A DNA stretch of 64,000 bases from Streptomyces sp. MRC013 (GTDB taxonomy: Bacteria > Actinomycetota > Actinomycetes > Streptomycetales > Streptomycetaceae): NCBI RefSeq assembly GCF_023614235.1, contig NZ_CP094264.1, positions 620,001 to 684,000 on the forward strand. The letters are read 5' to 3'. Position numbers and translations under genes: made by a program. Below, piece after piece: positions 9,124 through 40,331 of this stretch (position 1 is the stretch's first letter; each line of letters starts with the position of its first letter). The notes beneath the pieces are model-generated. The model worked only from the letters and a program-made list of their open reading frames with translations. It was not told the DNA's origin and did not search any database.

Positions 9124-9450
9124 ATGCCCCGAGGCAGCAGCCCGAAGCGGGAGCGGCAGTACGAGCACATCAAGGAAAGCGGCAGGAAGCGCGGCATGTC
9201 CGAGGACCGGGCCGAGGAGATGGCGGCCCGTACGGTCAACAAGGAACGGGCCCGCTCCGGCGAGGCGAAGTCCGCCAGCCGGAGCTCCACCCGGGGGAAG
9301 TCCCCCTCTCAGCGCGGCGGCGAGAAGTCCGGGAACCGCTCGAAGGAGCCGACTCGGGACGAGCTCTACCAGGAGGCGAAGCGGCGGGGGGTCGAAGGGC
9401 GCTCGTCGATGAACAAGGACGAACTGGCCCGGGCGCTGGGCCGCTCGTAG
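9124..9450 (+). CDS. Small basic Lys/Arg/Ser-rich protein with Rho-N-like C-terminus
   Basis: 108-residue hydrophilic protein starting MPRGSSPKRERQYEHIKES. The N-terminal third is helical with mixed charge (GMSEDRAEEMAARTVNKERA), the middle is a disordered Ser/Arg/Lys segment, and the C-terminal 35 residues (TRDELYQEAKRRGVEGRSSM, then NKDELARALGR) match the helix-extended-helix Rho N-terminal/SAP-like fold that binds nucleic acid. Close relatives in streptomycetes are often labelled plasmid stabilisation protein, but nothing here supports a toxin-antitoxin role. ATG at 9124 follows GAGAGGGAA. It stands alone, flanked by gene-poor repeats; a stress or nucleoid-associated role is a guess. Confidence 0.75.
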   Translation: MPRGSSPKRERQYEHIKESGRKRGMSEDRAEEMAARTVNKERARSGEAKSASRSSTRGKSPSQRGGEKSGNRSKEPTRDELYQEAKRRGVEGRSSMNKDELARALGRS

Positions 9451-9669
9451 GGACCCGCGCGCGGATGCCACAGGCCTGCGCCGGTCCGGCACCCGGCACC
9501 CGACGTCCGGGGAGAGGGAGTGGCGCGGCGGCGCCCGGTGTGGCCGCCCCCGCCGCGGTCGCCGGTCACCGGCCGCTTTCGACGATCCGCGGCCGGGGCG
9601 GCGCGGGGCCGGGGGTGGGAGGCCGCCTCACCGGTCCGGTCGGGAGTACGGACCCGTGCCCGCCGGAGA

Positions 9670-9761
9670 GGGTTCCGCACCCGATCGTCCAACCGCCCGG
9701 GTCCGCCACCGGTTCAGCTTCGCGAACGGGGGGTTCCGCACCCGATCGTCCAGCCGCCCGG
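9670..9761. repeat. Pair of 31-bp direct repeats, 61-bp period
   Basis: The unit starting GGGTTCCGCACCCGATCGTC occurs at 9670-9700 and again at 9731-9761 with one mismatch; the 30 bases between copies are unrelated. Confidence 0.7.
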
Positions 9762-9876
9762 CCGGCGGCCGTCGTCGGCCCGGACGGCGCCCTGGTACCG
9801 GCGGCACCGGGCCACCCGATCGCCCGGTCACCAGCCCTGCCGCCGTCCCCGGGCGGCTTCCCGGCGCCACCGCCCG

Positions 9877-9965
9877 GTACGGCACCGGCGCGGGCCGCGG
9901 GGGTCCGCCAGCGCCCGCTCCCCCTCGCCGGTCACCCGTATGGCACCGGTGCGGGCCGCGGGGGT
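9877..9965. repeat. Pair of 28-bp direct repeats, 61-bp period
   Basis: The unit GTAYGGCACCGGYGCGGGCC plus eight further bases occurs at 9877-9904 and 9938-9965 with two mismatches. Sequence differs from the repeat pair 200 bases upstream although the 61-base spacing is identical. Confidence 0.65.
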
Positions 9966-10149
9966 GAGGGCCTCCGGGGGCTCTTCCACGGTCCACGGTC
10001 CCCGTTCCGGCACGGGGGCCGCCCGGCGACCGCCCGGGCCGGGGCCGTTTGCCGGCCCGTACGGGTGTTACCCGTCCTGTCGCCGCATGCGGCTCCGCGG
10101 ACGGTGGAGAGCCGTTCGCCTCAGGGCCCGCGAGGAAGGAGGCACGGGG

Positions 10150-10557
10150 ATGACATCGGTCAAGGACATGCTGGACACGTATCCGGCGGACCTGGGCGGA
10201 GTGGACGAGCAGGCCGTGGCCAGGTGCATCGAGGCGTGCGTCGCCTGCGCCCAGGCCTGCACGGCCTGCGCCGACGCCTGTCTGGCCGGGGGCATGGTCG
10301 GTGAGCTGACCAAGTGCATCCGCACGGACATGGACTGCGCGGACGTCTGCAACGCCACCGCCGCCGTACTGTCCCGCCACACCGGTTACGACGCCGACAT
10401 CACCCGCGCGGTCCTCCGGGCGTGCGCCACGGTGTGCGGGGCGTGCGCCGACGAGTGCGAGAGCCACGCGGACGTGCACGACCACTGCCGCGTCTGCGCC
10501 GAGGCGTGCCGCGGCTGCGAGCAGGCGTGCGACGACCTGCTCGCGAGCCTCGGCTGA
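10150..10557 (+). CDS. Four-helix-bundle copper-binding protein (DUF326/Csp-like)
   Basis: 135-residue cytoplasmic protein with about 20 cysteines arranged as repeated C-x3-C and C-x2-C pairs along amphipathic helices, e.g. CIEACVACAQACTACADACL and CATVCGACADECESH, ending HCRVCAEACRGCEQACDDLL. This pattern is that of the copper-storage Csp / DUF326 family, whose Cys-lined four-helix bundles hold multiple Cu(I) ions. Histidines near the C-terminal helix fit the metal entrance of the family. There is no Tat or Sec signal, so it would be the cytosolic type. ATG at 10150 is preceded by AAGGAGG. It is monocistronic, with no copper ATPase or CsoR gene nearby. Older annotation often calls this ferredoxin; the Cys spacing does not support an Fe-S protein. 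Confidence 0.85.
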   Translation: MTSVKDMLDTYPADLGGVDEQAVARCIEACVACAQACTACADACLAGGMVGELTKCIRTDMDCADVCNATAAVLSRHTGYDADITRAVLRACATVCGACADECESHADVHDHCRVCAEACRGCEQACDDLLASLG

Positions 10558-11114
10558 CCACGGCGCTCCGGCCGTCCGCGCAGGCGCGGACGCCGCCCTC
10601 CGACTCCCGTCACGGCACGGTCGGCATGGCGGTCGCGACGGTGCGCGCCCGCGCGGTGCCGACCGTGGTGGTGCGCGCCCACGCGTGCCGACCGCGGTGG
10701 TACGGCCACCGGGCGGCGCGCGCCGTCGGGTGCGGGCGTCCACGGCCCGTGGCCACCGCGGCCCCGGACCGTCCCCCTCGACCGCACCGTCGCCCCGGTC
10801 GAGGGGACCTTCGCTCCGGCGTCGCCTTCGCATCCGCTGCTCGCCGGCGCCGGGGCGGGCGGCACGGCGCGGGCCTCCCGCCCGGCCGTCCCCGTACCCC
10901 CGTTCCCGTACCCCCGTTCCCGCCGTCCGTTTGCGTTCCGGGGGCGGGCGGAGCTCCGGGATCCCGTCGGAGGTGCGGGCGCCGCGGCCGACCGCCCGCG
11001 GCAGGTCTCCCCCGTACGGGAGGGGGCAGGAGCACCCGGAGCGGACCGGGCGGCGAAGCGGCGCGGCCGCGGGACCGGCGCGCAGGGCGCCGGACGGACG
11101 AGGGGAGAGGCGCC
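10558..11114. other. Gene-free stretch with short tandem duplications
   Basis: About 555 bases with no gene I can support. An imperfect ~30-base tandem duplication lies at 10641-10699 (GTGCGCGCCC start of each copy) and a 14-base tandem repeat GTACCCCCGTTCCC near 10893-10920. The RecQ ribosome-binding site closes the region. Confidence 0.45.
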
Positions 11115-15236: not shown

Positions 15237-16076
15237 GGGGGGCAGCCCACTACACGGACCGGGCCTGCGCAAGAGTCCGCCGGGTGCCGGCGTACACGCG
15301 CACGTGGGCTGCCCCGAGTTCGGGGATTCCGATTCCGATGATTCAGGCGGATGGCGAGAGTTGTCCCTGTTCTTTCCGGAAGTCCCGTTCGTGCTCGGCG
15401 GGCGGGATGCGCCGAGCGCGCGGTGGGGCCTTCTTCGCTGCGCCGCGTCACCCGCTGGGTGATCGCCCTCCTGACCTGCCGGTGGTTCCGCCGGAGCTCC
15501 CGCGTCCCGGTCAGCCCGGTCTCGAAGGCGTCGTCCGGTGCCTCGGCCGTGGTCCGTCGTGCGGGTGCGACGGAGCCGGCGGCTGCGGGGCGCCGGCGTC
15601 GGACGGCCGCTCGGCGTAGCGGGTCGATACGCGGTGCGGCCTCCCGGCCGGGTGGTGGGCGAGCCGGGGGTCCTTCTTGACGCGCCGTCGGCAGAGGACC
15701 GCCCCCGGGGCTCCCGGCGGGGGTTCGGTCCGCATGCGGTTCGCGACCCGCCGGCCGACGATCGTCCGGGAAGGCGTCGGCGACGAACGCCGCACACGCC
15801 GGGTCTGAGGAGGACGTGGGACACGCCCGGCCCGACCGGGCGCGGAGATGCGTCATGTCCGCGCCCGGGAGCCGGCGGGACCAGAAGCGGTGAGGTCGCG
15901 GTCGACCGGGTCCGTCGGCCGCGGGCGCCCGGGGCGCACCCGGGCGCCCGCGGCCGGGCTCCGGGCGGGTCCAAGCGCCCGCGCACCCGCCCGGACCAGG
16001 GGGGCGCCGCCGCGGGGAGGCCACGTGAGAGCGGGGGGACCCGGGGAAGAAGAAGCGGCAACCGAAGGAGGCCGCC
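15237..16076. other. Gene-free divergent region
   Basis: 840 bases between the divergent amidase and phosphatase genes. Several long GC-rich frames exist on both strands but none shows a start with RBS, a domain or plausible amino-acid composition. A perfect 18-bp inverted repeat at 15916-15956 stands out. Some of this could be decayed coding sequence; I cannot identify it. Confidence 0.4.
15916..15956. repeat. Perfect 18-bp inverted repeat upstream of the phosphatase gene
   Basis: Left arm CGGCCGCGGGCGCCCGGG (15916-15933), five-base loop, exact complement at 15939-15956. It sits 120 bases before the PP2C start. It could be a terminator protecting the gene from upstream transcription, a leader structure, or an operator. 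Confidence 0.5.
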
Positions 16077-17346
16077 GTGGACGGTGACGTGCTGGGGTTG
16101 GGAGACATCCTGGTGGAGGCGGAGGCCGCCTCGCCGGTGGAGTCCGTCGATGTCGTGGCCCGGAACCTGCGGAAGCGGTTCGGGGCGGACTGCGTGTCGT
16201 TCCTCTTCGTCGACCTGGTCGGCGAGGAACTGGTGCGGCTCACCACGGCCGACGGGGCGGAGGACGGACGCCGGGCGACGCGCACAGGCCTGCGGGGAAG
16301 CGTGTACGAGGAGGTCCTGAGGTCCCAGCGCCTCCGCGTCGAGCCGGACGGGAAGGGCGGCCACCGGGCCGTCGCGCCGGTCACCAACCGCGGTGACTGC
16401 GTCGGCGTGCTGGAGCTGACGCTGCCGTGCGCCGACGAGGCGGTGCTGCGCCGAGTGGTGGACGCGGCGCACGCGCTGGCGTACATCATCGTCACCGACC
16501 GGCGCTTCACCGACCTCTACCACTGGGGCCGGCGCAGCACTCCCACCAGTCTGGCCGCCGAGATCCAGCACCAGTTGCTGCCCTCCGCCGCGTGCTGCGA
16601 GGCCGCGCAGTTCTCCCTCGCGGGCGGTCTGGTGCCGGCCGACGACATCGGCGGCGACACGTACGACTACGCCCTGGACCGGGGCACCCTGCACCTGTCC
16701 ATCACCGACGCCATGGGGCACGACACCGAGTCCGCCCTGCTGGCCACCCTGCTGCTCGGCGCGCTGCGCGGTGCCCGGCGCGTCGGGTGCGGCATCGCGG
16801 AACAGGCCCGCCGGGCGCACCGGGCGCTCCTCGACCACGGCCGCGGCCTGGCCACTGGCCAGTTGCTCCGCGTCGACCTCGACGGCGGCGGCGTCCGGCT
16901 GGTCAACGCCGGCCATCCCAGACCGCTGCGCCTGCGCGACGGCACCGTGGAGGAACTGGCCGTCTCCCCCGACCTGCCCTTCGGCGTCTCCTCCCCCCAC
17001 CCCCTACCGCGTGCAGGAGTTGGGGCTGCGCCCCGGTGACCGGCTGCTCCTGCTCACCGACGGCATGCAGGAGCGCGGCGCGGCCGGCGTGGACCTGCCC
17101 GCCCTCTTCCGCGACACCCGCCGCCTCCACCCGCGCGAGGCCGTCCGGGCCCTGGTCGCCGCCGTGTGCGACGCCTGCGGGGGGCACCTGGAGGACGACG
17201 CGACCGTGCTGTGCCTGGACTGGCACGGCCCCCAGCCCACCGGTCTGCGCCCCGACGCCGACGACGGCGTCCGGGCCCTGGCGCGGGGGCCGTTGCCGGA
17301 GGGCGGCACCCCCGCGCGGGCGGGACGGCGGGGCGCCGCTCGCTGA
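16077..17346 (+). CDS. PP2C/SpoIIE-type protein phosphatase with GAF-like N-terminus (one-base frameshift)
   Basis: Predicted Mn/Mg-dependent serine phosphatase of the RsbU/SpoIIE kind, acting on anti-anti-sigma factors in partner-switch signalling. GTG at 16077 has an ideal AAGGAGG (16065-16071). Residues ~1-140 are GAF-like; [20 protein letters not shown] precedes the catalytic acidic motif [17 protein letters not shown], then [20 protein letters not shown]. After PDLPFGVSS the frame breaks; the continuation [20 protein letters not shown], then [13 protein letters not shown], lies in the next frame to 17346. The total is one base over whole codons; one extra C in the runs at 16993-17004 explains it. 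Corrected length is about 422. The downstream genes are on the same strand but separated by 190 bases. Confidence 0.82.
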
Positions 17347-27498: not shown

Positions 27499-27994
27499 CT
27501 ACCCGGCGATCCCTCCGACCGCGTCGATCCCGCTCCGCGGGCCGGGCCCGGGGACCGCCGGGGGCACGGAGTAGGTGACCGTCGCGGTGGCTGCCAGGGT
27601 GCCGGCGCCGTCGCGGAGTTCCGCGAGGACGACGCAGAGGCTCCTGCCGAACTTGGCCATCCTCGCGTGCGTGCGGAGCAGGCCGGGGCGGGGGGCGGTT
27701 GAGGTAGCTGATCTGGAGGGAGCTGGTCAGGGCCGTGAGGGTGGGGCTCCCCAGACGGGCGTTGACGAGGAGGAAGGCGGCCAGGTCGACGAGGGCGGCC
27801 TGTTCGGGGCCGGAGACCGTGCCGCCGGGGCGGAGGCGGAGGCGGGTGCCGTCGGCCTCCATGGTGAGGTGGGTCGAAGTGGCCTCGGTGACGTGGCAGG
27901 CGGTGTAGTCCTCGAAGTCCCGCGCGACCATCTCGTTGAGCGCGGTCGCGGTCATCGGGGCGTCGTCGGCCGGGGCGGTCGACTCGGTGGGCAC
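27499..27994 (-). CDS. Hotdog-fold thioesterase, PaaI/YiiD-like (one-base frameshift)
   Basis: Predicted acyl-CoA thioesterase. GTG at 27992-27994 follows GGAAGG. The N-terminal half (MVARDFEDYTACHVTEATST, then GGTVSGPEQAALVDLAAFLL, the hotdog helix with GG-x-x-x-x-P-x-x-A pattern, then TSSLQISYLNRP) is followed after the shift by RTHARMAKFGRSLCVVLAEL and LAATATVTYSVP to a TAG at 27499. The gene has one base too many; the six-base run at 27690-27695 (C on the coding strand) is the likely site, giving about 164 residues. It begins 23 bases downstream of the aminotransferase stop on the same strand, so the two form an operon. Substrate unknown. Confidence 0.75.
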
Positions 27995-28017: not shown

Positions 28018-29205
28018 TTACGCGAAGGTCTTGGCCAGACGGCGCAGGCCCTCGGTGATCTCCTCGGGAGGGTGGGCGGTGAAGGACAGGCGCAGGGTGG
28101 CCGGGTCCGGGGTGCCGGCGAAGAACGGGGCGCCGGGGACGTAGGCCACCTCGTGACCGACGGCGACGTGGAGGAGCCGGGTGGCGTCGTGGCCCTCGGG
28201 CAGGGCGACCCAGACGAACATGCCGCCCGCCGGGTGGTTCCAGCGGCTGCCGGGGGGCAGGGCGGTGGGCAGGCCGTCGAGGAGGGCGTCGCGGCGTTCC
28301 CGGTAGGCGTCGCAGATGGTCCCGATGTGGGCGTCCAGGTCGCTGTCGCGCAGGTAGCGTGCGGCCACGGCCTGGTCGACGGTGGAGGTGTGGAGGTCGG
28401 CGGCCTGCTTGGCGAGGACGCAGGACCGGCGGATGGCCGCGGGGGCGCGGAGGTATCCGAGGCGCAGGCCCGGGGCCATGATCTTGGAGAAGGAACCGAG
28501 CAGGATGGTGCGGTCGGACGCGGCGGGGGACGCGGCGATCCAGGGCACCTGCTCCCCGTCGTAGCGGAGTTCGCCGTAGGGGTCGTCTTCGACGATCCAG
28601 AAGCCGTGCCGGGCGGCGGCCTCGGCGACGGCGGTGCGCCGCGCGGCCGGGAGCGTGCGGCCGGTGGGGTTCTGGAAGGTGGGGACCAGGTAGAGCAGCT
28701 TGGCCGGTTCGCGCGCGACGATCTCGTCCAGGGCCTCGGGGATGACGCCGTCGTCGTCGGTGGGGACGGGGACGACGCGGGCGCCGGCGAAACCGAAGGT
28801 CTGGAGGGCGGCCAGGTAGCAGGGGTCCTCGACGAGCACGACGTCGCCGGGCTCCAGGGCGGTCGTGGTGATGAGGGTGAGGGCCTGTTGCGATCCCGTC
28901 GTGATCACCAGGTCGTCGGGGTCGGTGGGCAGTGCCCGTGCCGTGAGGCGCCGTGCGACGGCCTCGCGCAGGTCGGCGTCGCCCTCGGTGGTGGAGTACT
29001 GGAGGACCCGGCCGGGGGCGTCGGCCAGTACGCGGTCCAAGGCGGCCCTGAGGCCGTCGACGTCGAACAGCTCCGGAGCCGGAAGTCCCCCTGCGAAGGA
29101 GATCACTTCAGGGCGTGCGGTAAGCGACAGGATGTCCCGCACCGGCGAGGAGGCGACATTGGCCAGGCGGGAAGCGACGGCGGGCGGGGGAACAGGATGC
29201 CTCAT
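28018..29205 (-). CDS. PLP-dependent class I/II aminotransferase (LysN / 2-aminoadipate type)
   Basis: 395-residue fold-type I aminotransferase. EVISFAGGLPAPELFDVDGL is the hallmark N-terminus of the 2-aminoadipate/MocR-like aminotransferase group; TTGSQQALTLI and VEDPCYLAALQTF hold the cofactor-binding region, YLVPTFQNPTGRTL the conserved Asn-Pro-x-Gly, DDPYGELRYDG the Asp/Tyr pair, and LLGSFSKIMAPGLRLGYLR the Schiff-base lysine. There is no N-terminal GntR domain, so it is an enzyme, not a MocR regulator. The ATG at 29203-29205 has no Shine-Dalgarno but a -10-like hexamer six bases upstream, implying a leaderless mRNA. It is divergent from the biosynthetic operon at 29751; membership of that pathway is possible but unsupported. 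Confidence 0.9.
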   Translation of the reverse strand: MRHPVPPPAVASRLANVASSPVRDILSLTARPEVISFAGGLPAPELFDVDGLRAALDRVLADAPGRVLQYSTTEGDADLREAVARRLTARALPTDPDDLVITTGSQQALTLITTTALEPGDVVLVEDPCYLAALQTFGFAGARVVPVPTDDDGVIPEALDEIVAREPAKLLYLVPTFQNPTGRTLPAARRTAVAEAAARHGFWIVEDDPYGELRYDGEQVPWIAASPAASDRTILLGSFSKIMAPGLRLGYLRAPAAIRRSCVLAKQAADLHTSTVDQAVAARYLRDSDLDAHIGTICDAYRERRDALLDGLPTALPPGSRWNHPAGGMFVWVALPEGHDATRLLHVAVGHEVAYVPGAPFFAGTPDPATLRLSFTAHPPEEITEGLRRLAKTFA

Positions 29206-29750: not shown

Positions 29751-30470
29751 ATGTCATCCACCATTCCGAATGACGAGGTCGTCGTGGTGCGGACTCCTGC
29801 GGAATTCCTCGCGATGCCCGAGGACTACCAGGAGATCGCGATCCGGGGAATGATCGTCAATACCGAGGGCGAGCTCTCGGGCGGCGACGACTACGTACAG
29901 GTCTTCCTGCCGCTGGCGCCGAACGCCGAGGAGCGGCAGGTCTGCGCGGAACGGGCAGTCGAGGAGTACGACCACTACAAGATCGGCAAGCGTGTCCTCG
30001 CCGACATCGGCGTCGACACGACCTACATGGAGAAGCAGACGCTCGCCGAGCGGAAACTCTTCGCAGGCCATGAGTTCCACGCGTGCACCACCTGGGCCGA
30101 GCGCGGCGTCTTCTCCTACATCGGCGAGGAGACGGCGATGGTGATGATCTCCGAGTTCGCCCGGAGCAGTTACAAGCCGTGGGCCGAGGCCGTCCGCACC
30201 ATCGTCCTCGACGAGAAGGTCCACATCGCGCACGGGGCGCGGGTCTGCCGCAGCCTGGCGGCGACGGACGAGGGCCGTGAGGAGCTGCAGCAGGCGCTGG
30301 ACCGGCTGTGGCCCGGTTTCGAGCGCATCTTCGGCAGCTCGCGGTCCGAGCGCTCCCGCATGGCCGTCCGCTACGGACTGCGGCAGACGACGAACGGGCA
30401 GGCGCGGGACGTCTGGCGGGAGAAGGTGACGCCGCGCATCAGGAACCTGGGGCTGAAGGTTCCCGAGTAG
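29751..30470 (+). CDS. PaaA-like ferritin-fold diiron protein (putative oxygenase)
   Basis: 239-residue protein of the phenylacetyl-CoA epoxidase catalytic-subunit (PF05138) type. Two E-x-x-H motifs are exactly placed for a dinuclear iron site: E72-Y-D-H75 in AVEEYDHYKIG and E155-K-V-H158 in VLDEKVHIAHG, 83 residues apart; E39 and E126/E127 are candidates for the remaining ligands. The helical ferritin-like core spans residues ~25-185. It is the first gene of the operon, ahead of a radical SAM enzyme and a dedicated ACP. The usual paaBCDE partner genes are absent, so I infer that it oxidises a carrier- or CoA-bound acyl chain rather than phenylacetyl-CoA. ATG at 29751 with GAGGGG. Confidence 0.8.
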   Translation: MSSTIPNDEVVVVRTPAEFLAMPEDYQEIAIRGMIVNTEGELSGGDDYVQVFLPLAPNAEERQVCAERAVEEYDHYKIGKRVLADIGVDTTYMEKQTLAERKLFAGHEFHACTTWAERGVFSYIGEETAMVMISEFARSSYKPWAEAVRTIVLDEKVHIAHGARVCRSLAATDEGREELQQALDRLWPGFERIFGSSRSERSRMAVRYGLRQTTNGQARDVWREKVTPRIRNLGLKVPE

Positions 30471-30553
30471 GGCGGGACGCACCGGAGTGCCGCGTGCCGG
30501 AAGCGGCCACAACAGCGCGTTCCGACGATTCCGAGGACGAGGAGCACACCCCC

Positions 30554-31663
30554 ATGGCAACGTCCGTCACGATCGGCAAACGCCCCCTCACCCGCAGGGA
30601 GGCCAAGGAGCGCACGGCCGCCCTGCTGGCGCAGCGGCCGGATCTGGCCGACCGGCTGCACCGCCTGCGCCGGCTCGGACGCACCGTCCGCTCGTGCGAG
30701 GTCCACCTGACCAACACGTGCAACATCCGCTGCAAGGGCTGCTGGTACTTCGAAGGCGGCTTCGACACGGCGGTCAGGGAGCTGTCCGACGTCGGCAAGA
30801 TCAAGGCCTTCGCCCGGAGGCTGCGGGACGACGGCGTCAACCAGGCGACGCTGATCGGCGGTGAACCCACGCTGGTCCTGCGCCGGGTGGAGGCGTTCGT
30901 CGAGGAGCTCCCCTACATCACCGTCTCCACCAACGGGCTGCGGCCGATGCCCGTACAGGGCTTCGAGCACATCGCGATCGCCGTCAGCGTCTTCGGCGGC
31001 GGGCCGCTCGACGACGACCTGCGCGCCATCCGCGTCAACGGGTCGAAGTTCACCGGTCTGTTCGACACGGCGCTGTCCCACTACCGCGACGACCCCCGGG
31101 TGCTGTTCATCTTCGCTCTCTCCGAGGCCGGCCTGCCCCACCTGGAACCGACGGTCCGGAAGATCGAGGACAACGGCAACATCGTCACGTTCAACTTCTA
31201 CAGTGAGCACGGCTCCGACCACCCGATCCGGATCGAGAACGAGCGCCGGGTGCTGGAGGAGGCGCTGCGGGTCAAGGAGTTGTACCCGCGGACGGTGGTG
31301 AGCCACCCCTACTTCATCCGCACCCTCGTCACCGGCACCTCCCACTGGGGCGCCCGTTTCGGCTACGACGTCTGTCCGAGTCTGAGCGTGGACCACCCGG
31401 CCCACGAGGAGCGCGTCGCCAACGGCAATCCGGTGATCCCCGGCTTCGCGGCCTGGGGAGCCGACTACGAGTCGCTGCAGTTCTGCTGCACCTCCGGGGA
31501 CTGCGGCGGCTGCCGGGACAGCCAGGCCGTCTACAGCTGGCTGGTGGTCAGCGCCAACCGGTTCCTGGACGGCGCGGAGCGGCTGGAGGAGTGGCTGGAG
31601 ATCACGGAGAGCTACTGGCGGCAGTGGCACTGGTCGCCGTTGCACGCCACCAAGGCGGCGTAG
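30554..31663 (+). CDS. Radical SAM enzyme with cysteine-rich C-terminus
   Basis: 369-residue radical S-adenosylmethionine protein. The cluster-binding motif is C56-N-I-R-C60-K-G-C63-W, followed by the SAM-site motif LIGGEPTLVLRR and TVSTNGLRPMP. The core barrel runs to about residue 230. Later cysteines (YDVCPSLS near 275 and FCCTSGDCGGCRDSQ near 315-328) resemble the auxiliary iron-sulphur sites of SPASM/twitch enzymes, so a second cluster is likely. No B12-binding domain is present. It lies 83 bases after the diiron gene and 57 before the ACP. Chemistry cannot be deduced: options include C-C bond formation, epimerisation or dehydrogenation on the acyl chain or an amino-acid unit. The start ATG has GAGGAG about 12 bases upstream. 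Confidence 0.88.
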   Translation: MATSVTIGKRPLTRREAKERTAALLAQRPDLADRLHRLRRLGRTVRSCEVHLTNTCNIRCKGCWYFEGGFDTAVRELSDVGKIKAFARRLRDDGVNQATLIGGEPTLVLRRVEAFVEELPYITVSTNGLRPMPVQGFEHIAIAVSVFGGGPLDDDLRAIRVNGSKFTGLFDTALSHYRDDPRVLFIFALSEAGLPHLEPTVRKIEDNGNIVTFNFYSEHGSDHPIRIENERRVLEEALRVKELYPRTVVSHPYFIRTLVTGTSHWGARFGYDVCPSLSVDHPAHEERVANGNPVIPGFAAWGADYESLQFCCTSGDCGGCRDSQAVYSWLVVSANRFLDGAERLEEWLEITESYWRQWHWSPLHATKAA

Positions 31664-31720
31664 CCCGCGAGGCCACGGCCCCCGGTCCCCCGCGTCCCGT
31701 ACGAGAAGGGCACACCATCC

Positions 31721-31966
31721 ATGCTTGACCACGCCGCGATCGAGAAGTTCGTCAACGACGCCCTGGTGGAACTCGGCGTCGACGAGGCGGACGTCTCCCC
31801 GGACGCCGCGCTCGACGACCTGGAGATCGACTCGCTCGACACGGTCGAACTGGCGCAGGCGATCAGGAAGGACCTGAAGATCCCGGTGAAGATGAAGGAC
31901 TTCGACGGCCTCGACACCGTCGGCCAGATCCTCAGGCTCTGCTACGAGAAGGCCGGACTTGAGTGA
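31721..31966 (+). CDS. Dedicated acyl carrier protein
   Basis: 81-residue acidic four-helix protein. LDDLEIDSLDTVELAQAI contains the D-S-L motif whose serine (about residue 37) takes the 4'-phosphopantetheine arm. It is divergent from typical FabC-type ACPs (helix III MKDFDGLDTVGQILRLCYEK), as expected for a pathway-specific carrier. ATG at 31721 with GAGAAGG. Its stop (31964-31966) overlaps the TTG start of the ketosynthase, so carrier and ketosynthase are translationally coupled. It should carry the chain handled by the surrounding ketosynthases, reductase, diiron and radical SAM proteins. Confidence 0.9.
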   Translation: MLDHAAIEKFVNDALVELGVDEADVSPDAALDDLEIDSLDTVELAQAIRKDLKIPVKMKDFDGLDTVGQILRLCYEKAGLE

Positions 31967-33998
31967 CGCGGCGGGGGCGGTGGTGACGGGCTTCGGCGCG
32001 GTCACCCCGCTCGGTGTCGGCGCCGACGCGCTGCACGAGCGGGCCGTCGCCGGGGAGAGCGCACTGCACGGCGGGCTCGGCTCCTGCGACGGCTTCCGCC
32101 CCTGCGACCACCTCTCCCGTCACCTCGTGCGCCGCACCGACCGTTTCACGCAGTTCACGCTGGTGGCGGCGGACGAAGCGCTGGCGCGGGCCGGCTGGAC
32201 CCCCGGCGGGCTCCCGTACGACGCCGCGCGCGTCGCCTGCGTCATCGGCTGCGGGCTCGGCGGTACGGCCAGTTTCGAGGCGCAGGGCGCGGTCCTCGCG
32301 GAGCAGGGCGCCGAGTACGTTTCGGCCCTGACGGTGCCGCGGATGATGGCCAACGCCGCCGCATCGCACCTGTCGATGCGGTACGGGCTCACAGGCGAGT
32401 CGCTGTGTGTGGCCTCCGCCTGCAGCAGTGGTGCGCAGGCCGTCGGTGCGGGACTGCGGCTGCTGGCCGCGGGCGCGGCGGACGCCGTCGTGGTGGGCGG
32501 CGCGGAGGCGTCGACGTCGGAGCTCGTCGGAGCCGCCTTCCGCAACACCGGGGCGCTCTCCCCCACCGGTCGGTGCCTGCCGTTCGACACGGACCGGGAC
32601 GGCTTCGTCATCGGGGAGGGCGCGGGCGTCCTCGTACTGGAGACGGCCGGCGGCGCCGCCCGGCGCGGGGCCGAGGCGCTCGGCGCCGTGCGCGGCTACG
32701 GCGCCACCTCCGACGCCCACCACCTCACCGCCCCCGATCCCGGCGGCGGCCCGGCCGCCGAGGCCGTCGTCCAGGCTCTGCGCCGGGCCGGAACGGCACC
32801 CGGGGAGCTGGACTACCTCAACGCCCACGGCACCGGCACCCCGCTCAACGACCGGCTGGAGTGCGACGCCCTGCGCCTGGCCCTCGGCGGCGACGTACTG
32901 GCCCGCGTCCCGATGTCGTCCAGCAAGGGCGCCCTCGGGCACCTCTTCGGTGCGGCCGGAGCGGTGGAGGCCATCGCCACGCTGCAGGCGCTGCGCCACG
33001 GCGTCGCGCCCCCGACCGCCGGCCTGCGGCAGCCGGACGAGCGCCTCGGCGAGCTGGACCTGGTCCGGACGGCGCGCGAACTGCCCCGCGGGCGGCCGCG
33101 GGTGGGTCTGTCGACGTCGTTCGGTTTCGGGGGCCACAACGCGGCGCTCGTGCTCTCCACCCCCCGACCGACGAAAGGCCGTAGTGCGATGCTCGGTTTC
33201 GAAGGACGCCGCTACCTCGTGACCGGGGTCCTCAACGACGACTCCATCGCCTGGCACACCGCCAAGGCCCTCCAGGAGGCGGGCTCGGAGGTGCTGCTGA
33301 CCGGGTTCGGCCGGACGCGGCGGATCACCGAGGCCGCGGCGGCCGGGTTGCCCCGCCCCGCCGACGTCCTCGAACTCGACGCCACCCGGCCGGACGACCT
33401 CACCCGGCTGGCCGAAGTCCTGGAGGACAGGTGGGGCGCGGTCGACGGCGTCCTGCACGCGATCGCCGCCGCCCCGCAGTCCGCGCTGAGCGGCAACTTC
33501 CTCACCACTCCCGTCGAGGACGCCGCCCACGCCCTGCACACGGCGGCCGTGTCCCTGCACGGGCTCACCACCGCCCTGGCCCCGCTGCTGGCGAAGAACC
33601 GGGGCAGCGTCGTCGGGCTGGACTTCGACTCCTCCGGCGCCTGGCCCGGCTACGACTGGATGGGCGTCGGCAAGGCCGCGCTCGGCGCCGTCTGCCGCTA
33701 CCTCGCCCTCTACCTCGGCGGCAGCGGCATCCGCGTGAACCTCGTCGCCGCCGGGCCCGTGGAGACGGTCGCGGGGTCCGCCGTCAGCACCTTCGGCACC
33801 ATCGCCGACCGCTGGGAGCGGGAGGCGCCGCTCGGCTGGGACCGCGCCGACGTGCGGCGCCTGACCGGGCCCGTCCTCTTCCTGCTCTCCGATCTCGCCG
33901 CCACCGTCACCGGTGAGATCGTGCACGCCGACGGTGGTATGCACGCCGTCCGCATGGGTGCGGGCGACCGGACCCGCCGGAAGGGGGACGCACGATGA
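31959..33998 (+). CDS. FabF-type ketosynthase read in frame into a FabI-type enoyl-ACP reductase
   Basis: One uninterrupted frame of 679 codons. Residues ~1-405 are a beta-ketoacyl-ACP synthase II with an intact Cys-His-His set: VASACSSGAQAVGAG, NAHGTGTPLNDRLECD and SSKGALGHLFGAAGA; it ends FGFGGHNAALVLS. After a short linker (TPRPTKGRSA) residues ~411-679 are an NADH-dependent FabI-like SDR: YLVTGVLNDDSIAWHTAKAL, catalytic Y-x6-K in YDWMGVGKAALGA, and AAGPVETVAGSAVSTFG. An ATG at 33189 starts the reductase and has GAAAGG upstream. One extra C in the C-run before it (about 33160-33170) would make the ketosynthase stop at a TAG four bases before that ATG, so the fusion may be a homopolymer artefact. 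TTG start at 31959, overlapping the ACP gene. Confidence 0.85.
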   Translation: MSDAAGAVVTGFGAVTPLGVGADALHERAVAGESALHGGLGSCDGFRPCDHLSRHLVRRTDRFTQFTLVAADEALARAGWTPGGLPYDAARVACVIGCGLGGTASFEAQGAVLAEQGAEYVSALTVPRMMANAAASHLSMRYGLTGESLCVASACSSGAQAVGAGLRLLAAGAADAVVVGGAEASTSELVGAAFRNTGALSPTGRCLPFDTDRDGFVIGEGAGVLVLETAGGAARRGAEALGAVRGYGATSDAHHLTAPDPGGGPAAEAVVQALRRAGTAPGELDYLNAHGTGTPLNDRLECDALRLALGGDVLARVPMSSSKGALGHLFGAAGAVEAIATLQALRHGVAPPTAGLRQPDERLGELDLVRTARELPRGRPRVGLSTSFGFGGHNAALVLSTPRPTKGRSAMLGFEGRRYLVTGVLNDDSIAWHTAKALQEAGSEVLLTGFGRTRRITEAAAAGLPRPADVLELDATRPDDLTRLAEVLEDRWGAVDGVLHAIAAAPQSALSGNFLTTPVEDAAHALHTAAVSLHGLTTALAPLLAKNRGSVVGLDFDSSGAWPGYDWMGVGKAALGAVCRYLALYLGGSGIRVNLVAAGPVETVAGSAVSTFGTIADRWEREAPLGWDRADVRRLTGPVLFLLSDLAATVTGEIVHADGGMHAVRMGAGDRTRRKGDAR

Positions 33999-34936
33999 CG
34001 GCGGCGATCACCGGCATCGGGGCCGCGCTGCCCGAACGCACCGTGCCGAACAGCCACTTCGAGGCGATCGGTTCGTCCGACGAGTGGATCGTCAAGCGGA
34101 CGGGCATCAGGGAGCGCCGCTTCCTGGCCGAGGACGGCCGGCTCGCCGACCTCGCCGTGACCGCCGCCCGGACGGCGCTGCGGCAGGCCGGACGGGACGC
34201 CGCCGACCTGCACCACGTCGTCGTCGCGACGACCACCCCGGACCGGACGACGCCCGGACTGGCGGTGGAGGTGGCCGCACGGCTGGGCACTCCGCAGGCC
34301 GCCGCCTTCGACCTGCACGCGGCGTGCGCCGGATTCGTGTACGCCCTGGACCACGGGACGGCGCTCATCGAGTCCGGGCGGGCGGAGGCCGTCCTCGTCT
34401 GCGGGGCGGAGGCGCTGACCCGCATCACCGACACCGCGGACCGGTCGACGGCCGTCCTGCTCGGGGACGGCGCTGGCGCCGTCGTCCTCACCGACCTCCC
34501 GGACGCCCCCGTCGCACCCGCCTTCCACCTGGCCTCGGACGGCGAACACGTCGGGCTGCTCTTCGCCGACCGCCACGACCGCAAGCTCCGCATGGACGGC
34601 CCGGAGATCTTCGTCCACGCCGTGGAGAAGATGAGCGACGCGGTCCGGCGGGTGCTGGAGCGGCGCGAGCTCGCCTGCGACGGCGTCGACCTCTTCGTCG
34701 CCCACCAGGCCAACGCCCGCATCGTGAGGGCCGTCGGCAAGGAGATCGGGGTGCCGCCCGAGCGTCTGTTCCTCAACGTCGACCGGGTGGCCAACACCTC
34801 GTCGGCGTCCATCCCCATCGCCCTGGCCCACGCCCGGGAGGAGGGCCGGATCGGGCCGTCCGGGGTGCTGGGCGTGGCCGCCTTCGGCGCGGGCATCACC
34901 TGGGGCGCCGGCGTGCTCGGCTGGCGGCTGGGATGA
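33995..34936 (+). CDS. FabH-type beta-ketoacyl-ACP synthase III
   Basis: 313-residue ketosynthase that normally condenses an acyl-CoA starter with malonyl-ACP. Catalytic residues are all visible: Cys in FDLHAACAGFVYAL (near 111), His in LFVAHQANARIV (near 240) and Asn in NVDRVANTSSASIPIALA (near 270). SSDEWIVKRTGIRERRF matches the family N-terminus. ATG at 33995 overlaps the reductase stop (ATGA) and its own stop overlaps the hydrolase start. As the only KAS III in the operon it is expected to select the primer unit, so its pocket residues would be the best clue to the starter. Confidence 0.93.
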   Translation: MTAAITGIGAALPERTVPNSHFEAIGSSDEWIVKRTGIRERRFLAEDGRLADLAVTAARTALRQAGRDAADLHHVVVATTTPDRTTPGLAVEVAARLGTPQAAAFDLHAACAGFVYALDHGTALIESGRAEAVLVCGAEALTRITDTADRSTAVLLGDGAGAVVLTDLPDAPVAPAFHLASDGEHVGLLFADRHDRKLRMDGPEIFVHAVEKMSDAVRRVLERRELACDGVDLFVAHQANARIVRAVGKEIGVPPERLFLNVDRVANTSSASIPIALAHAREEGRIGPSGVLGVAAFGAGITWGAGVLGWRLG

Positions 34937-35827
34937 GCACCGGGCGGCCCCGCCTGCCGCTGCTGGGCGAGATCACGGCGCCCGACGGCGCGCGGCTCAC
35001 CGTGCGGGTGCAGGCGCGGGACGACACCGGCGCCCCCGTCGTCGTCCTGCTGCCCGCCATGGGGACGCCCGCGCGCACCTACCTCCCGCTCGTGCGGGCG
35101 CTGCACCGGCGGGGCATGACGGTCGTGACGACGGACCTGCGCGGGCAGGGCGAGAGCGTGCCCGTGCCGGCGCGCGGTGTCCGGTTCGGCTACCGCGAGA
35201 TCGTCGAACACGACATCGGGGCCGTGCTCGACCTCGTCGGCGCCGCCTATCCCACGGCTCCGCGGCTGCTCCTCGGGCACAGCCTGGGCGGGCAGCTGGG
35301 GCTGGTGCACTGCGGGCTGTTCCAGCCGCCGCACCTCGACGGCGTCGTGCTCGTCGCCAGCGGTTCCGCCTGGTACCGGGCGCTGGGGCGGGGCGGGGCG
35401 GGCTGGCTGGTGCGCAGCCAGCTCGGCGCCGCGGGGGGCCGGGGTGCTCGGGTACTGGCCCGGGGACCGGTTCGGGTTCGGCGGGCGGGAGACGGCGCGG
35501 CTCATGCGGGACTGGGCACGCCAGGTGCGCACCGGCCGCTACACCGTGCCCGGGGCGCGGGCGGACTACGAGCGGGCCCTGCGGGCGGTGGCGCTGCCCG
35601 TCCTCGCCGTCGACGTCGAGAACGACACCATGGCGCCGCCGGCGGCCGTGGACCACCTGTGCGCCAAGCTGCCCGCCGCCCGCGTCGAACGTCTCCACTA
35701 CGCGTGCGCCGACGCGGACGGCCGTCCGCTGGACCACTTCCGCTGGATACGGCACCACGGCCGGCTCGTCGAGCGCGTCGGGGCCTGGGCGGCGCGGGTC
35801 GCCGCCGCCTCCGGCCGGGCGGCCTGA
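34933..35827 (+). CDS. Alpha/beta hydrolase (one-base frameshift)
   Basis: Predicted serine hydrolase that could release or cleave the acyl chain. ATG at 34933 (ATGA overlap with KAS III). VVLLPAMGTPARTYLPLV is the oxyanion region, VVTTDLRGQGESVP follows, and LLLGHSLGGQLGLVH contains the nucleophile elbow G-H-S-L-G near residue 118. After SQLGAAG the frame changes; the continuation VLGYWPGDRFGFGGRETARL, the acid in VENDTMAPPAAV and the late histidine in PLDHFRWIRHH run to 35827. One surplus G in the six-G run at 35433-35438 accounts for the break; the corrected length is about 297. The triad is then complete, so the gene is likely intact in the organism. Confidence 0.82.
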
Positions 35828-36021
35828 TGCCGGGTCACCGCGCGGGCGGGCGGGGACGGCGCGGGCGTCGTCGAGGACCGCTGCCGGGTGAGCGCCCCGG
35901 CCTTCCCGCGCCCCGCGTGTGCCGCACCGCCCCCGGCCGGCGGCGGCCTGCCGGCGACCGCGATCGAACCCGAGCCGCCGAGGTCCGTCTCCCCTCGGCC
36001 CGCCGTACCGGAGGATTCCCG

Positions 36022-37575
36022 ATGCACCCCGAGCCCCCGCACGACCCCGGCACCGTGCCCGCCCTGCTGGCCCGCAGCGCCGCCGCGCACCCCGACCGCC
36101 CGGCCCTGCGCCTGGACGCCGAGGAGCTGACCTTCGCCGAGCTGGACGACCTCAGCTCCCGCGCCGCCGCCCGGCTCCGCGCCCTGGGCACGGCGCCGGG
36201 GGACCGCGTCGCCGTCCTCCTGCCGAACAGTCCCGTCTTCGCGGTGCTGTACTACGGCATCCTGCGCGCCGGGGCGATCGTCGTGCCCCTCAACCCCCTG
36301 CTGAGGGCCGGGGAGGTCGAACACTGCCTGAACGACGCCGGAGCCGCCCTCCTCCTCGCCTGGCACCGGGGCGCGCACGAGGCGGTGGAGGGCGCCCGCC
36401 GGGCCGGCACCCCGCACCTCGTGGTCGAACCGGAGACCTTCCTCGACGGGTTGCGGACCCGTCGTCCGCCGGCCCGCGACGAACCGCGCTCGCCCACCAG
36501 CTCCGCCGTCGTCCTCTACACCTCCGGAACCACCGGCAACCCCAAGGGCGCCGAACTCACCCATCACAACCTGCGCCGCAACACCGCCGAGGGCGTGCGC
36601 GTGCTCCGCCTGGACCCCACCGACGTCGTCTTCGGCGGGCTGCCGCTCTTCCACTCCTTCGGACAGGTCATGGGGCTGAACTGCGCCGTGTCGGTGGGCG
36701 CCTGCCTGACCCTGCTGCCCCGCTTCACACCGGCGGACGCCTTCTCCGTGATCGAACGGGACCGGGTGACCGTCTTCCTGGGCGTCCCAACGATGTACAC
36801 GCTGATGCTTCGGCTGGCACAGAGCCCCGGGTCCGGGCCGTACGACCTCTCCACCCTGCGCGTCGGCCTGTGCGGCGGCTCCCCGCTGCCCGTGGAGGTG
36901 CTGCACGCGTTCGAGGAGACGTTCGACTGCGCCGTGCTGGAGGGGTACGGGCTCTCGGAGTCGTCGCCGCTCGCCTGCGTGAACCGCATCGACCGCGAGC
37001 GCGTCGCGGGCACGGTCGGCGTTCCCGTGGACGGCGTCGAGATGCGCGTCGTCGACCGCGGGGGCAGGGAACTGCCCGACGGCGAGGTGGGCGAGATCGT
37101 CATCCGCGGGCACAACGTCATGCGGGGCTACTGGCGCCGTCCGCAGGCGACCGCCGAGGCCGTACGGGGCGGCTGGCTGCACACCGGTGACCTCGGCACC
37201 CGGGACGCGCGGGGGGACTTCCGGATCGTGGGCCGCATCAAGGACCTCGTCATCCGCGGCGGGTGCAACGTCTATCCGCGGGAGGTGGAGGAGGTCCTCC
37301 ACGCCCATCCGGCGGTCGCCGAGGCAGCCGTCGTCGGGATACCGCACGAAGTCCACGGCCAGGAGGTCGCCGCCGCCGTGGTGCTGCGCGCCGGGACGTC
37401 CGCCACGCCGGAGGAGCTGGTCGGGTTCGTCCGCGAGCGGGTCGCGCCCTTCAAGTACCCGCGCGTCGTGTGGATCACCGACCACCTGCCGAAGGGCCCC
37501 ACCGGCAAGGTCCTCAAGCGCGAGATCGTCCGGCCCGGGTCCGCGCGGCCCGCCGGGAAGGCGTCGGGGGGCTGA
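36022..37575 (+). CDS. Acyl-AMP ligase (fatty acyl-CoA/ACP synthetase family)
   Basis: 517-residue ANL ligase, last gene of the operon. P-loop YTSGTTGNPKGAELTHHN near residue 170, GYGLSESSPLACVN near 310, GWLHTGDLGTRDARGDFRIV near 385-405, IKDLVIRGGCNVYPREVEEV and the adenylation lysine in PTGKVLKREI near the end. All motifs for adenylation and thioester formation are present. ATG at 36022 has GGAGG seven bases before; 194 bases separate it from the hydrolase, so it may have its own promoter, but the strand and content fit the pathway. It could activate the free acid released by the hydrolase, or load an exogenous starter on the ACP or CoA. Confidence 0.92.
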   Translation: MHPEPPHDPGTVPALLARSAAAHPDRPALRLDAEELTFAELDDLSSRAAARLRALGTAPGDRVAVLLPNSPVFAVLYYGILRAGAIVVPLNPLLRAGEVEHCLNDAGAALLLAWHRGAHEAVEGARRAGTPHLVVEPETFLDGLRTRRPPARDEPRSPTSSAVVLYTSGTTGNPKGAELTHHNLRRNTAEGVRVLRLDPTDVVFGGLPLFHSFGQVMGLNCAVSVGACLTLLPRFTPADAFSVIERDRVTVFLGVPTMYTLMLRLAQSPGSGPYDLSTLRVGLCGGSPLPVEVLHAFEETFDCAVLEGYGLSESSPLACVNRIDRERVAGTVGVPVDGVEMRVVDRGGRELPDGEVGEIVIRGHNVMRGYWRRPQATAEAVRGGWLHTGDLGTRDARGDFRIVGRIKDLVIRGGCNVYPREVEEVLHAHPAVAEAAVVGIPHEVHGQEVAAAVVLRAGTSATPEELVGFVRERVAPFKYPRVVWITDHLPKGPTGKVLKREIVRPGSARPAGKASGG

Positions 37576-38261: not shown

Positions 38262-40331
38262 TCAACTCCCGCCGTAGACGCCCACCTCGCGGAGCGAGTA
38301 TCCCCACCGCGTGCCGCGTTCCAACCCGTGGACGCGGACGTACCGGGCCTGCTCGGGGGCGAAGCGCGCCGTGTCGAGGCCGCCGTCGCCGGCCGTGGTG
38401 GACCAGGCGGTGCGCCAGGCCGATCCGTCGGCGGAGACCTCCACGCGGTACGCCCTCGCGTACGCCTCCTCCCAGTCGAGGGTGACGCGCCCGACGGCGC
38501 GGACCGCCCCCAGGTCGATCCGGAGCCACTGGTCGTCGCTCCATTCGCTGGCCCAGCGGGTGCGGGTGTCCCCGTCGACGGCCCTGCCGGGCGCGTGGCC
38601 GGTGAGCGGGTCCCACCACTGGGTGGAGCTCGCCGTGGCGGTCGCGCCCGCCGCGAGGTTCGCGCCCAGGCCGTGGCGTTCGGAGGCGCCCCAGGTGCGC
38701 AGGTACGACTCGGCGCCCAGGAGCAGGTCGTCCACGACGTCCCCGCCCCCGGTGACCCGGATGTCCTCCACCCAGTCGGGCACGAGCCCGTAGTGGGCGG
38801 CGCCGTCCTCGTTGAGGTCCCAGGTGCGCTGCCCGGTGGTCTGCCGGTCGACGACGGAGCCCCCGTCGGCGGTGCGGAAGGGGTAGCGCACCGGGTCGGG
38901 GACGTCGGCGCCGCGCGGGGCGGGCCAGCCGCCGACCCCGTTCATGTCGGTGCCGTACCCGTACCCGATCCCGTACCGGGTGCGCAGGGCGTCGGTGCGC
39001 CTGGCCTCGGCCGTGAACTCCTCGGCGCCGTGCATGTACTGGGCGATGAAGCCGCCGAGGCGGTAGACGCGCTCGGTCCAGTCGGCGTCCATCCAGCTGT
39101 GCGAGGAGAGGACCCCCGGGTAGGACTCGGACTCCAGGACGTCCAGGGCGCGGCCGGCGGCCTTGACGCTCATGTGGTCGATCTCCAGCATCATGCCGCG
39201 CCGCATCATCCCGCGCACCGCGTACTCGCCGAGGTCGGTGAGGCCGCGGACGTTGCACCGGGCGTCCTGCGCGTAGGCGGGGACGGCGACGCCGGGCGGG
39301 AGCTTCGCCTCGGCGCCGGGGGCGGGGGCTCCGCCGATGGGGTTGTCGTGCTGCGGGCCGGTGCACCGCTCGGTCTTCCAGAAGGTGCCGGTGGACAGGA
39401 ACTGGCCGACGTTGACGGCCGTGCCCAGGGCGCCGGAGTCGAAGCGGACGCCGCACAGGGCGTTGTCGAACTTGTGGCACAGGAACATGCTGCGCACGCC
39501 GAGCCCGTACAGTTCGTCGAGGCCGCGGTCGATGTCCTCGCGGTCGCACCGCGCCGCGTCGCCGACGTGCTTGCAGCCGAACGGCTCGGACGTCTCGACG
39601 CCGAGGACGACGGCGAGCCTGCCCTGCCGGACGACCTCGCGGGCCTGGGCGCTGTCGGTGACGATCCGGAACCAGCCCTTGCCGGGCCCGCCGTACATCC
39701 GGTCCACGTACGCCTGCATCTCGTACGTCTTCCGCGCCTGGAGGCGGAGGGACGTCATCTCGTCGCAGCCGCGGTCCTTGAAGAAGTACAGGGAGCAGAT
39801 GACACCGTTGGTGACGAGGTGGTTGACGAGGACGCGCTGGCCGCCGCGCCAGGCGCGCTCGATCCAGGCGTAGTAGTTCTGCTGGTGGGTCAGCGAGTCG
39901 TGGGCGGGCCAGTCCGCGAAGGTCGGCCAGCCGTTCGGGTCGTGCTTGCCGTCGCCGCCCTCGGTGATGAAGTCGAACAGGGCGAGGGAGCCGTCGGGGT
40001 AGTGCTCGGGGCAGTCCTTCAGCGCGTCGGCGACGCCGTGCTCGGAGAACGCCTTGCCGCAGATCAGGCGGCCGCCGAAGGCCTCGTTGGACATGATGTG
40101 GTTGTGGGCGTCGACGAAGCCGCGCACTCTGCCCCGGGGGTCGGTGCCCCGGAAGGGCTCACCGGTGACGTTGATCTGCGAGTCGGGCACGGGCCGGGCG
40201 ACGGGCTCCCACCAGCCTGGCGGCGCCTCGGCGCCGGAGGTCGCGGAGGGGCCCAGGGCCAGGGCCGCCGCGGTGACGAGGAGGGACAGCAGCGCGAGGA
40301 TTCCGCGCCTGGTGGGGGAGGGTCGGGTCAT
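38262..40331 (-). CDS. Secreted M19-type dipeptidase/amidohydrolase with C-terminal discoidin (F5/8 type C) domain
   Basis: 689-residue exported protein. MTRPSPTRRGILALLSLLVT is a signal peptide with an RR pair that could use Tat or Sec. The catalytic part (~70-510) has VRGFVDAHNHIMSNEAFGG, the H-x-H metal site of TIM-barrel hydrolases, plus VVLGVETSEPFG, MMLEIDHMSVKAAG and VLSSHSWMDADW, the order seen in membrane-dipeptidase-like enzymes. The last ~140 residues (ATASSTQWWDPLTGHAPGRA, then RWASEWSDDQWLRIDLGAVR) form a discoidin/CBM32 module that binds glycans or cell surfaces. An outer-surface peptidase or polymer-degrading role is plausible. Substrate unknown. It begins the operon with the DUF2165 gene. 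Confidence 0.85.
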   Translation of the reverse strand: MTRPSPTRRGILALLSLLVTAAALALGPSATSGAEAPPGWWEPVARPVPDSQINVTGEPFRGTDPRGRVRGFVDAHNHIMSNEAFGGRLICGKAFSEHGVADALKDCPEHYPDGSLALFDFITEGGDGKHDPNGWPTFADWPAHDSLTHQQNYYAWIERAWRGGQRVLVNHLVTNGVICSLYFFKDRGCDEMTSLRLQARKTYEMQAYVDRMYGGPGKGWFRIVTDSAQAREVVRQGRLAVVLGVETSEPFGCKHVGDAARCDREDIDRGLDELYGLGVRSMFLCHKFDNALCGVRFDSGALGTAVNVGQFLSTGTFWKTERCTGPQHDNPIGGAPAPGAEAKLPPGVAVPAYAQDARCNVRGLTDLGEYAVRGMMRRGMMLEIDHMSVKAAGRALDVLESESYPGVLSSHSWMDADWTERVYRLGGFIAQYMHGAEEFTAEARRTDALRTRYGIGYGYGTDMNGVGGWPAPRGADVPDPVRYPFRTADGGSVVDRQTTGQRTWDLNEDGAAHYGLVPDWVEDIRVTGGGDVVDDLLLGAESYLRTWGASERHGLGANLAAGATATASSTQWWDPLTGHAPGRAVDGDTRTRWASEWSDDQWLRIDLGAVRAVGRVTLDWEEAYARAYRVEVSADGSAWRTAWSTTAGDGGLDTARFAPEQARYVRVHGLERGTRWGYSLREVGVYGGS

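Follow-up and report, generated by a model that had tools for sequence, protein, structure and literature searches.

A recurrent diiron oxygenase and radical SAM gene pair that may lead from carrier-bound acyl chains to alpha-amino acids

In the stretch analysed here (the window; 64,000 nucleotides of Streptomyces sp. MRC013), an operon of eight functions places the genes of a PaaA-like diiron oxygenase and a radical S-adenosylmethionine (rSAM) enzyme ahead of an acyl carrier protein (ACP) and a dedicated set of chain-building genes. The diiron and rSAM genes form a conserved pair that occurs in about five neighbourhood types across three phyla, and a divergent aminotransferase and a hotdog thioesterase encoded beside the operon belong to the same gene set. 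From these parts, their catalytic residues, the predicted folds of both iron enzymes, their co-occurrence and a clade of cluster aminotransferases, we infer that the operon core (diiron oxygenase, rSAM enzyme, carrier protein, enoyl reductase, hotdog thioesterase and aminotransferase) may make a non-proteinogenic alpha-amino acid from an acyl chain bound to the carrier, a reading that we favour with a confidence somewhat short of even. An earlier, sequence-only reading of the same DNA is partly supported in its overall interpretation: its dedicated chain-building operon with a diiron and an rSAM enzyme beside the carrier was well founded, and chain building itself stands, but its modified fatty-acid-like product is weakened, since it missed the aminotransferase and thioesterase that shift the likely product to an amino acid.

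The diiron and radical SAM enzymes form a conserved pair

The diiron protein (29751..30470, plus strand; 239 aa) matches PF05138 (PaaA_PaaC) with 70.2 bits (E 2e-19; gathering cutoff 28.5). Its six ligand residues, in the set E39, E72xxH75, E126 and E155xxH158, are invariant in 48/48 aligned sequences, the window included, and by sequence it would qualify as a carboxylate-bridged diiron oxygenase (E, E-x-x-H, E, E-x-x-H). The predicted structure (AlphaFold pLDDT 93.7) has PaaA entries as its top Foldseek matches, with TM scores by query of 0.80-0.86, and a diiron profile run against PDB sequences also matched PaaA (E 2.3e-25). Likeness to PaaA in predicted fold, sequence match and E-x-x-H ligand pattern is nevertheless set against clear differences: the window protein scores 72.5 bits against TIGR02156 (PaaA), far below the curated cutoff of 280, its gene adjoins that of an rSAM enzyme, and no PaaB, PaaC, PaaD or PaaE was among the annotated neighbours, for which part of the flanking open reading frames (ORFs) was scanned. 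In three myxobacterial loci (L046, L052 and L074), a second diiron paralogue directly follows the rSAM gene and is perhaps a PaaC-like partner.

The rSAM enzyme (30554..31663, plus strand; 369 aa) belongs to the radical SAM superfamily by its PF04055 match (32.4 bits, E 1.3e-7; cutoff 29.5) and its CxxxCxxC motif. The motif cysteines (C56xxxC60xxC63) and five further cysteines (C274, C311, C312, C317 and C320) are invariant in 55/55 aligned sequences, again counting the window. The predicted structure (pLDDT 91.6) has BlsE, SkfB, anSME and viperin as its nearest folds; DesII is also among the fold matches, and SpeY entries appear among both sequence and fold matches. The enzyme resembles Twitch/SPASM-type proteins (BlsE, SpeY, DesII, anSME, SkfB) in its rSAM core and conserved C-terminal cysteines, but differs from them in identity (12-20% in the fold matches), in substrates and in cysteine spacing, its CC-x4-C-x2-C pattern being, to our knowledge, distinct from published SPASM spacing.

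Loci for comparison were chosen by the rSAM gene alone. An rSAM-profile scan of a contig collection gave 68 loci, and a search of 200 genomes from the window's family yielded 8 places, spread over 7 genomes with the own genome among them; the resulting 75 loci exclude the window (L001) and contain at least three duplicates, with identical rSAM sequences in L003/L022, L005/L020 and L006/L024 (71 different among 74 rows). The window is counted among the 74 rows of the tree and the 66 of the identity matrices; L042 and L071 are missing from both because their matches were too short or broken. A diiron gene lies on the same strand within 2.5 kb of the rSAM gene in 67/75 loci, spread over Actinomycetota, Myxococcota and Pseudomonadota. 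Moreover, the pairwise identities of the two proteins are correlated (Spearman 0.93, 66 rows), a value reached in none of 500 permutations. The pair thus recurs beyond chance, and its pairing, which had been called unusual, is instead the rule in this rSAM family and no oddity of this operon. The pair is accompanied by an ACP gene in 46 of the 75 loci, 35 of which also carry an enoyl-ACP reductase (ENR) gene. The condition named in the earlier reading as refuting it, a lack of conserved co-occurrence, therefore does not hold. Closest to the window's rSAM enzyme are those of Streptomyces somaliensis, S. olivaceoviridis and S. flaveolus.

When 396 genomes of the phylum were searched reciprocally, the rSAM gene was found in three (the own genome, G044 and G264) and a close diiron form in two (the own genome and, at 74%, G044), both times beside the rSAM gene; 11 other genomes match the diiron protein at 24-28%, likely with PaaA or its kin. 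The diiron-rSAM family is therefore rare in the phylum. rSAM relatives with no nearby diiron gene were seen at L068-L070, L072, L073, L055, L075 and L090, and those of the Burkholderia clade adjoin an alpha/beta hydrolase gene. Several automatic calls were set aside: ORF clusters c17, c21, c33, c34 and c57 from Burkholderia and the 435-aa ORF c468 (L074) have no Pfam match and are likely spurious, cluster c14 overlaps ENR on the opposite strand by position, and the 1594-aa ORF of L075, whose open frame continues into the rSAM gene, is not a demonstrated fusion.

A single diiron protein acting on an acyl carrier has a precedent in BioE of biotin synthesis, described in the available part of PMC12915131 as a stand-alone ferritin-like diiron oxygenase that acts on acyl-ACP and cleaves C7-C8. 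The likeness, known from that description, lies in the single ferritin-like protein and the acyl-ACP substrate; the cleavage sets BioE apart, and no rSAM partner is mentioned in the part of the paper available. The diiron enzyme might by analogy cleave the chain, leaving a shortened or biotin-precursor-like product that is aminated later at another position. KAS III (a beta-ketoacyl-ACP synthase), hydrolase and aminotransferase genes also occur in biotin routes. We nonetheless consider cleavage improbable: the nearest solved diiron relatives are PaaA proteins and aldehyde-deformylating oxygenase ranks far lower (BioE lay outside this comparison), and the dedicated KAS and ENR genes suggest the building of a defined chain. 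No biotin synthase appears among the NCBIfam matches of the rSAM enzyme, and a biotin-like pathway for the operon is accordingly not favoured.

Chain builders change around the pair while an aminotransferase and a thioesterase recur

Neighbourhood counts depend on the length of the loci. Seven of the 75 (L002-L008) are 4-kb stretches, so that counts for hydrolase and ligase genes are lower bounds; the 67 loci longer than 9 kb are the base for aminotransferase and 4HBT thioesterase counts, the latter called at a low threshold (38 bits). Type A, in Streptomyces and kin, comprises 16 loci with the pair, ACP, KAS II, ENR, KAS III and hydrolase, a ligase in 14/16 (within the stretch), a 4HBT match in 16/16 and an aminotransferase in 13/16. 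A Sfp-type phosphopantetheinyl transferase is encoded in seven of these 16 operons (L012, L014-L017, L019 and L042; in L017 at 15535-16344); none was detected in the window at E 1e-8. In type B (L028-L031 and L054), a large polyketide synthase, an IlvE-type aminotransferase and a 4HBT protein accompany the pair in 5/5 loci, the one synthase scanned (L031) reading KS-AT-DH-ER-KR-ACP. Type C consists of nine loci from Micromonospora, Streptosporangium kin and a metagenome-assembled genome (MAG) of Pseudonocardiales, with genes for an EPSP-synthase-like protein, a ligase most like cyclohexanecarboxylate-CoA ligase, an acyl-CoA dehydrogenase and, in 8/9, a protein of an FMN-oxidoreductase group.

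Type D, in S. netropsis, S. chattanoogensis and Streptomyces sp. SID12501, carries a Rieske oxygenase, an AMP ligase-ACP-KS protein, a thioesterase and an AurF-like oxygenase. A Rieske gene is also present in the 4-kb stretch of G142, which is perhaps the same species as S. netropsis, and in the Rhodospirillales MAG L048 a Rieske relative (44%) occurs together with an AurF match that falls below the cutoff. The S. netropsis locus L024 contains two diiron-rSAM pairs (628-1317 and 9246-11101), which belong to types D and A and are separated by about 8 kb. The proteobacterial type, in which L048 is counted, comprises 17 loci with the pair, a 4HBT protein in 12/17, a class I/II aminotransferase in 8/17, LuxI in four and AraC regulators in several; no KAS or ACP was detected in these 17 loci by the seed sequences used. 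In Burkholderia and Trinickia (L049, L050, L051 and L056), the pair and a thioesterase lie near a LuxI-type signal synthase, and in L051, which was scanned, PhyH, AMP ligase and AstE/AspA-like genes are near the pair as well.

These neighbourhoods bear on where in the pathway the pair acts. One alternative is that it modifies a small CoA-bound acid, aromatic or of short chain, to give an unusual starter for KAS III, with the ACP genes acting after the pair. This would fit PaaA, which has been solved with CoA thioesters (according to structure titles), the PaaI-like character of the hotdog thioesterase, and the proteobacterial loci that have the pair and thioesterase with no ACP detected. Types B and C, however, keep ACP and ENR genes after the pair with no KAS III detected, and we judge a CoA-bound starter to be rather unlikely. 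In Actinomycetota the constant parts are diiron, rSAM, ACP and ENR genes, joined in most types by 4HBT and aminotransferase genes. Components retained with such different chain builders are expected to work on the end of the molecule that the products share, which is where our favoured conversion to an alpha-amino acid would place them.

In the window, the class I/II pyridoxal phosphate aminotransferase (28018..29205, minus strand; 395 aa; PF00155 E 1.4e-39) is divergent to the operon and 43-48% identical to the aminotransferase near the pair in eight proteobacterial loci. Within its own 5.33-Mb genome, the local enzyme scores 802 bits and its next best relative 111.1; the background there is three PF01063 and five PF03061 matches. 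The hotdog (PaaI/4HBT-type) thioesterase gene (27499..27994, minus strand) is a 45% match to the 4HBT proteins of relatives and is out of frame near 27695, where it differs by one base from three close relatives: the N-terminal part starts in frame at 27994 and the C-terminal part lies in another frame. The 100-aa N-terminal fragment alone is without a domain match, and the ortholog in L009 matches PF03061 (E 1.1e-9). Many loci from several lineages encode relatives of these two proteins close to the pair, even where the starter seems to derive from shikimate or a modular polyketide synthase is present.

An aminotransferase was found in 32/67 long loci, and whole-genome lookups in 16 genomes placed an IlvE-family gene near the rSAM gene in nine, seven of them new, bringing the total to 39/67. 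A 4HBT thioesterase is present in 37/67 long loci and in 2/3 extended regions (type-C L077 and L078). In type C, an IlvE-type gene lies 9.6-17.4 kb from the rSAM gene in 8/9 loci, the ninth being on a 15-kb contig. Two classes of aminotransferase take the same place, class I/II (the window's group and the proteobacteria) and class IV (IlvE type), and their folds are not known to be related. A tree of the IlvE-type enzymes, which leaves out L033 (174 aa, too short) and the enzymes of L006/L024, members of another IlvE family, contains a cluster-specific clade: 10/13 cluster aminotransferases, from types A, B and C, form one clade (100/100) apart from ten housekeeping copies, a label (like 'primary') for copies outside the cluster. 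Indeed, the L077 and L078 enzymes of type C are 64-65% identical to the type-A L020 enzyme, as against 49-56% to the ten housekeeping copies.

The aminotransferase could instead supply a branched starter for KAS III, through a branched 2-oxo acid that becomes a branched acyl-CoA, with the pair tailoring the chain elsewhere by desaturation, ring closure or distal hydroxylation to yield a modified fatty acid. The class IV enzymes exceed branched-chain aminotransferase cutoffs, KAS III and ligase genes are both in type A, and diiron enzymes are generally capable of such chemistry. This explanation is possible, if unlikely, in our estimate. It does not account readily for the proteobacterial loci that have an aminotransferase with no KAS detected, or for the L077 and L078 enzymes, which share a clade with those of types A and B; and an enzyme that did no more than provide branched starters should be dispensable in type C, which keeps its IlvE-type gene in 8/9 loci despite a seemingly shikimate-derived starter.

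Layout of the operon in the window

As had been claimed, all eight functions lie on the plus strand (29751-37575), each with Pfam/NCBIfam support, and the catalytic residues are intact. The rSAM gene is followed by those of an 81-aa ACP (31721..31966; PF00550 E 2.2e-12) with its DSL motif, a FabF-like KAS II (31959..33188; Pfam/NCBIfam) with Cys-His-His motifs, and a 269-aa ENR-type short-chain dehydrogenase/reductase (33189..33998) with Y-x6-K, which at 311.7 bits against NF005908 (cutoff 299) would be FabI/InhA-like. The 313-aa FabH-like protein (33995..34936), with 309.3 bits against TIGR00747 (cutoff 292.1) and Cys-His-Asn, is by the same kind of evidence a KAS III. An alpha/beta hydrolase (34933..35827; N-terminal part PF12146 E 6.2e-16) and a 517-aa AMP-forming acyl ligase (36022..37575; PF00501 E 1e-103) complete the set.

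The statement that most of these genes are coupled by overlaps of 4-8 bases was too strong. Three pairs do overlap, ACP/KAS II by 8 bases and both ENR/KAS III and KAS III/hydrolase by 4, and no others, but there are gaps of 83 bases between the diiron and rSAM genes, 57 between rSAM and ACP, and 194 between hydrolase and ligase. KAS II and ENR form a single open frame (31959-33998) with no intervening stop and are separate ORFs in the relative L009. The second half of the hydrolase gene is in another frame after about 35433, with a one-base difference from three close relatives, and its C-terminal part is without a Pfam match; the frame changes in hydrolase and thioesterase reflect either damaged genes or assembly errors. 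Hydrolase and ligase, which the sequence-only reading had included in the set, are indeed present in the operon but fall outside the general core, being detected in 18/75 and 22/75 loci.

The flanking genes scanned outside the set encode SecD, DUF2165, an M19 dipeptidase, DUF2267, an ATPase-domain protein, a sigma-70 region 4 protein and a beta-lactamase, and look unrelated to the operon. The M19 dipeptidase-like protein (38265-40331), which carries a C-terminal F5/8 type C domain, is probably unrelated as well.

A possible route from acyl chain to alpha-amino acid

In type A, KAS III would start the chain, KAS II extend it and the dedicated ENR saturate it, with ketoreductase and dehydratase presumably borrowed from primary metabolism. 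The substrates of both aminotransferase families are 2-oxo acids, and a fatty-acid route yields no 2-oxo group. The alpha carbon must therefore be oxidised, with the diiron and rSAM enzymes as candidates for this step. We propose that the diiron enzyme would hydroxylate the alpha carbon of the acyl-ACP and that the rSAM enzyme would then remove two electrons to give a 2-oxoacyl-ACP, a step for which radical SAM dehydrogenases among its matches (SpeY, DesII and BlsE) offer an analogy. Family membership and conservation suggest that the hotdog thioesterase would free the 2-oxo acid and the aminotransferase convert it to the amino acid, which the ligase might then activate. The alpha/beta hydrolase might serve in editing or release, the weakest of these assignments.

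The closest idea in the literature seen is a proposal for mycoplanecin. According to the proposal in the part of PMC10817943 available, an acyl-ACP assembled with an ACP and KAS III is turned into a 2-oxobutyryl unit, the P450 MypP introducing the keto group and the rSAM protein MypH acting as a methylase; homo-amino acids are formed there by an aminotransferase domain, whose 2-oxo acids come from an isopropylmalate-synthase-like route. The passage from acyl-ACP to a 2-oxoacyl unit and the aminotransferase acting on 2-oxo acids are alike; a P450 in place of a diiron enzyme, an rSAM methylase and homo-amino acids of isopropylmalate-synthase-like origin are not. Membership of the operon in such a cluster was dropped given the P450 proposal, the word diiron being absent from the PMC10817943 text available. 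As far as their available parts go, PMC12159101 and PMC10491745 were judged unrelated to the pair, as was PMC13336041, whose reference list cites BioE. Among the matches listed from open-access PMC papers (subscription papers and preprints being outside the search), none was seen to describe the diiron, rSAM and ACP set, in agreement with the earlier reading, which knew of no described family with it. The enzyme families are known; what seems undescribed is their combination and the fact that it recurs in five contexts.

Several observations weigh against the proposed conversion. The rSAM gene occurs without a diiron gene in 8/75 loci (five forming a Burkholderia clade, plus L055, L075 and L062, the last a 3-kb contig), and G264 has an rSAM relative with no diiron match in the surrounding 16 kb; therefore, the rSAM reaction may not depend on the diiron enzyme. 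No reductase or electron donor for the diiron enzyme is among the annotated genes. No aminotransferase was found in 28/67 long loci within the regions examined, including the Rieske/AurF-like type (L047, L053 and L048), nor near the type-D pair, and PF01063 was not found near the rSAM gene in 7/16 genomes searched. Three of the 13 cluster aminotransferases fall outside the clade, one (L079, from L025) grouping with housekeeping copies and two being Sorangium sequences. The type-C ligase part reaches 463.9 bits where the cutoff is 792.3, and its cyclohexane-type starter is thus a putative one. The aminotransferase is the sole pointer to the alpha position, and the fold similarity that suggests an rSAM dehydrogenase is just as strong for SkfB, anSME and viperin, whose chemistry differs. 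Finally, the scheme needs neither hydrolase nor ligase, leaving both unexplained, and in the own genome the thioesterase and hydrolase genes are out of frame.

More broadly, and with a little less confidence than for the operon core itself, the pair may mark a widespread and apparently undescribed route from carrier- or CoA-bound acyl groups through 2-oxo acids to alpha-amino acids, in which a diiron oxygenase and an rSAM dehydrogenase would work in tandem on the alpha carbon and different lineages would plug in different chain builders (KAS II/III, modular polyketide synthase or cyclohexanecarboxylate-like). Non-proteinogenic amino acids are building blocks of many peptide antibiotics, and such a route, if true, would supply lipidic and cycloalkyl amino acids generally. 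The action of an oxygen-using diiron enzyme and a member of the usually oxygen-sensitive rSAM class on one acyl substrate would then be a new way to make them, and the pair provides a two-gene hook for genome mining of unknown compounds.

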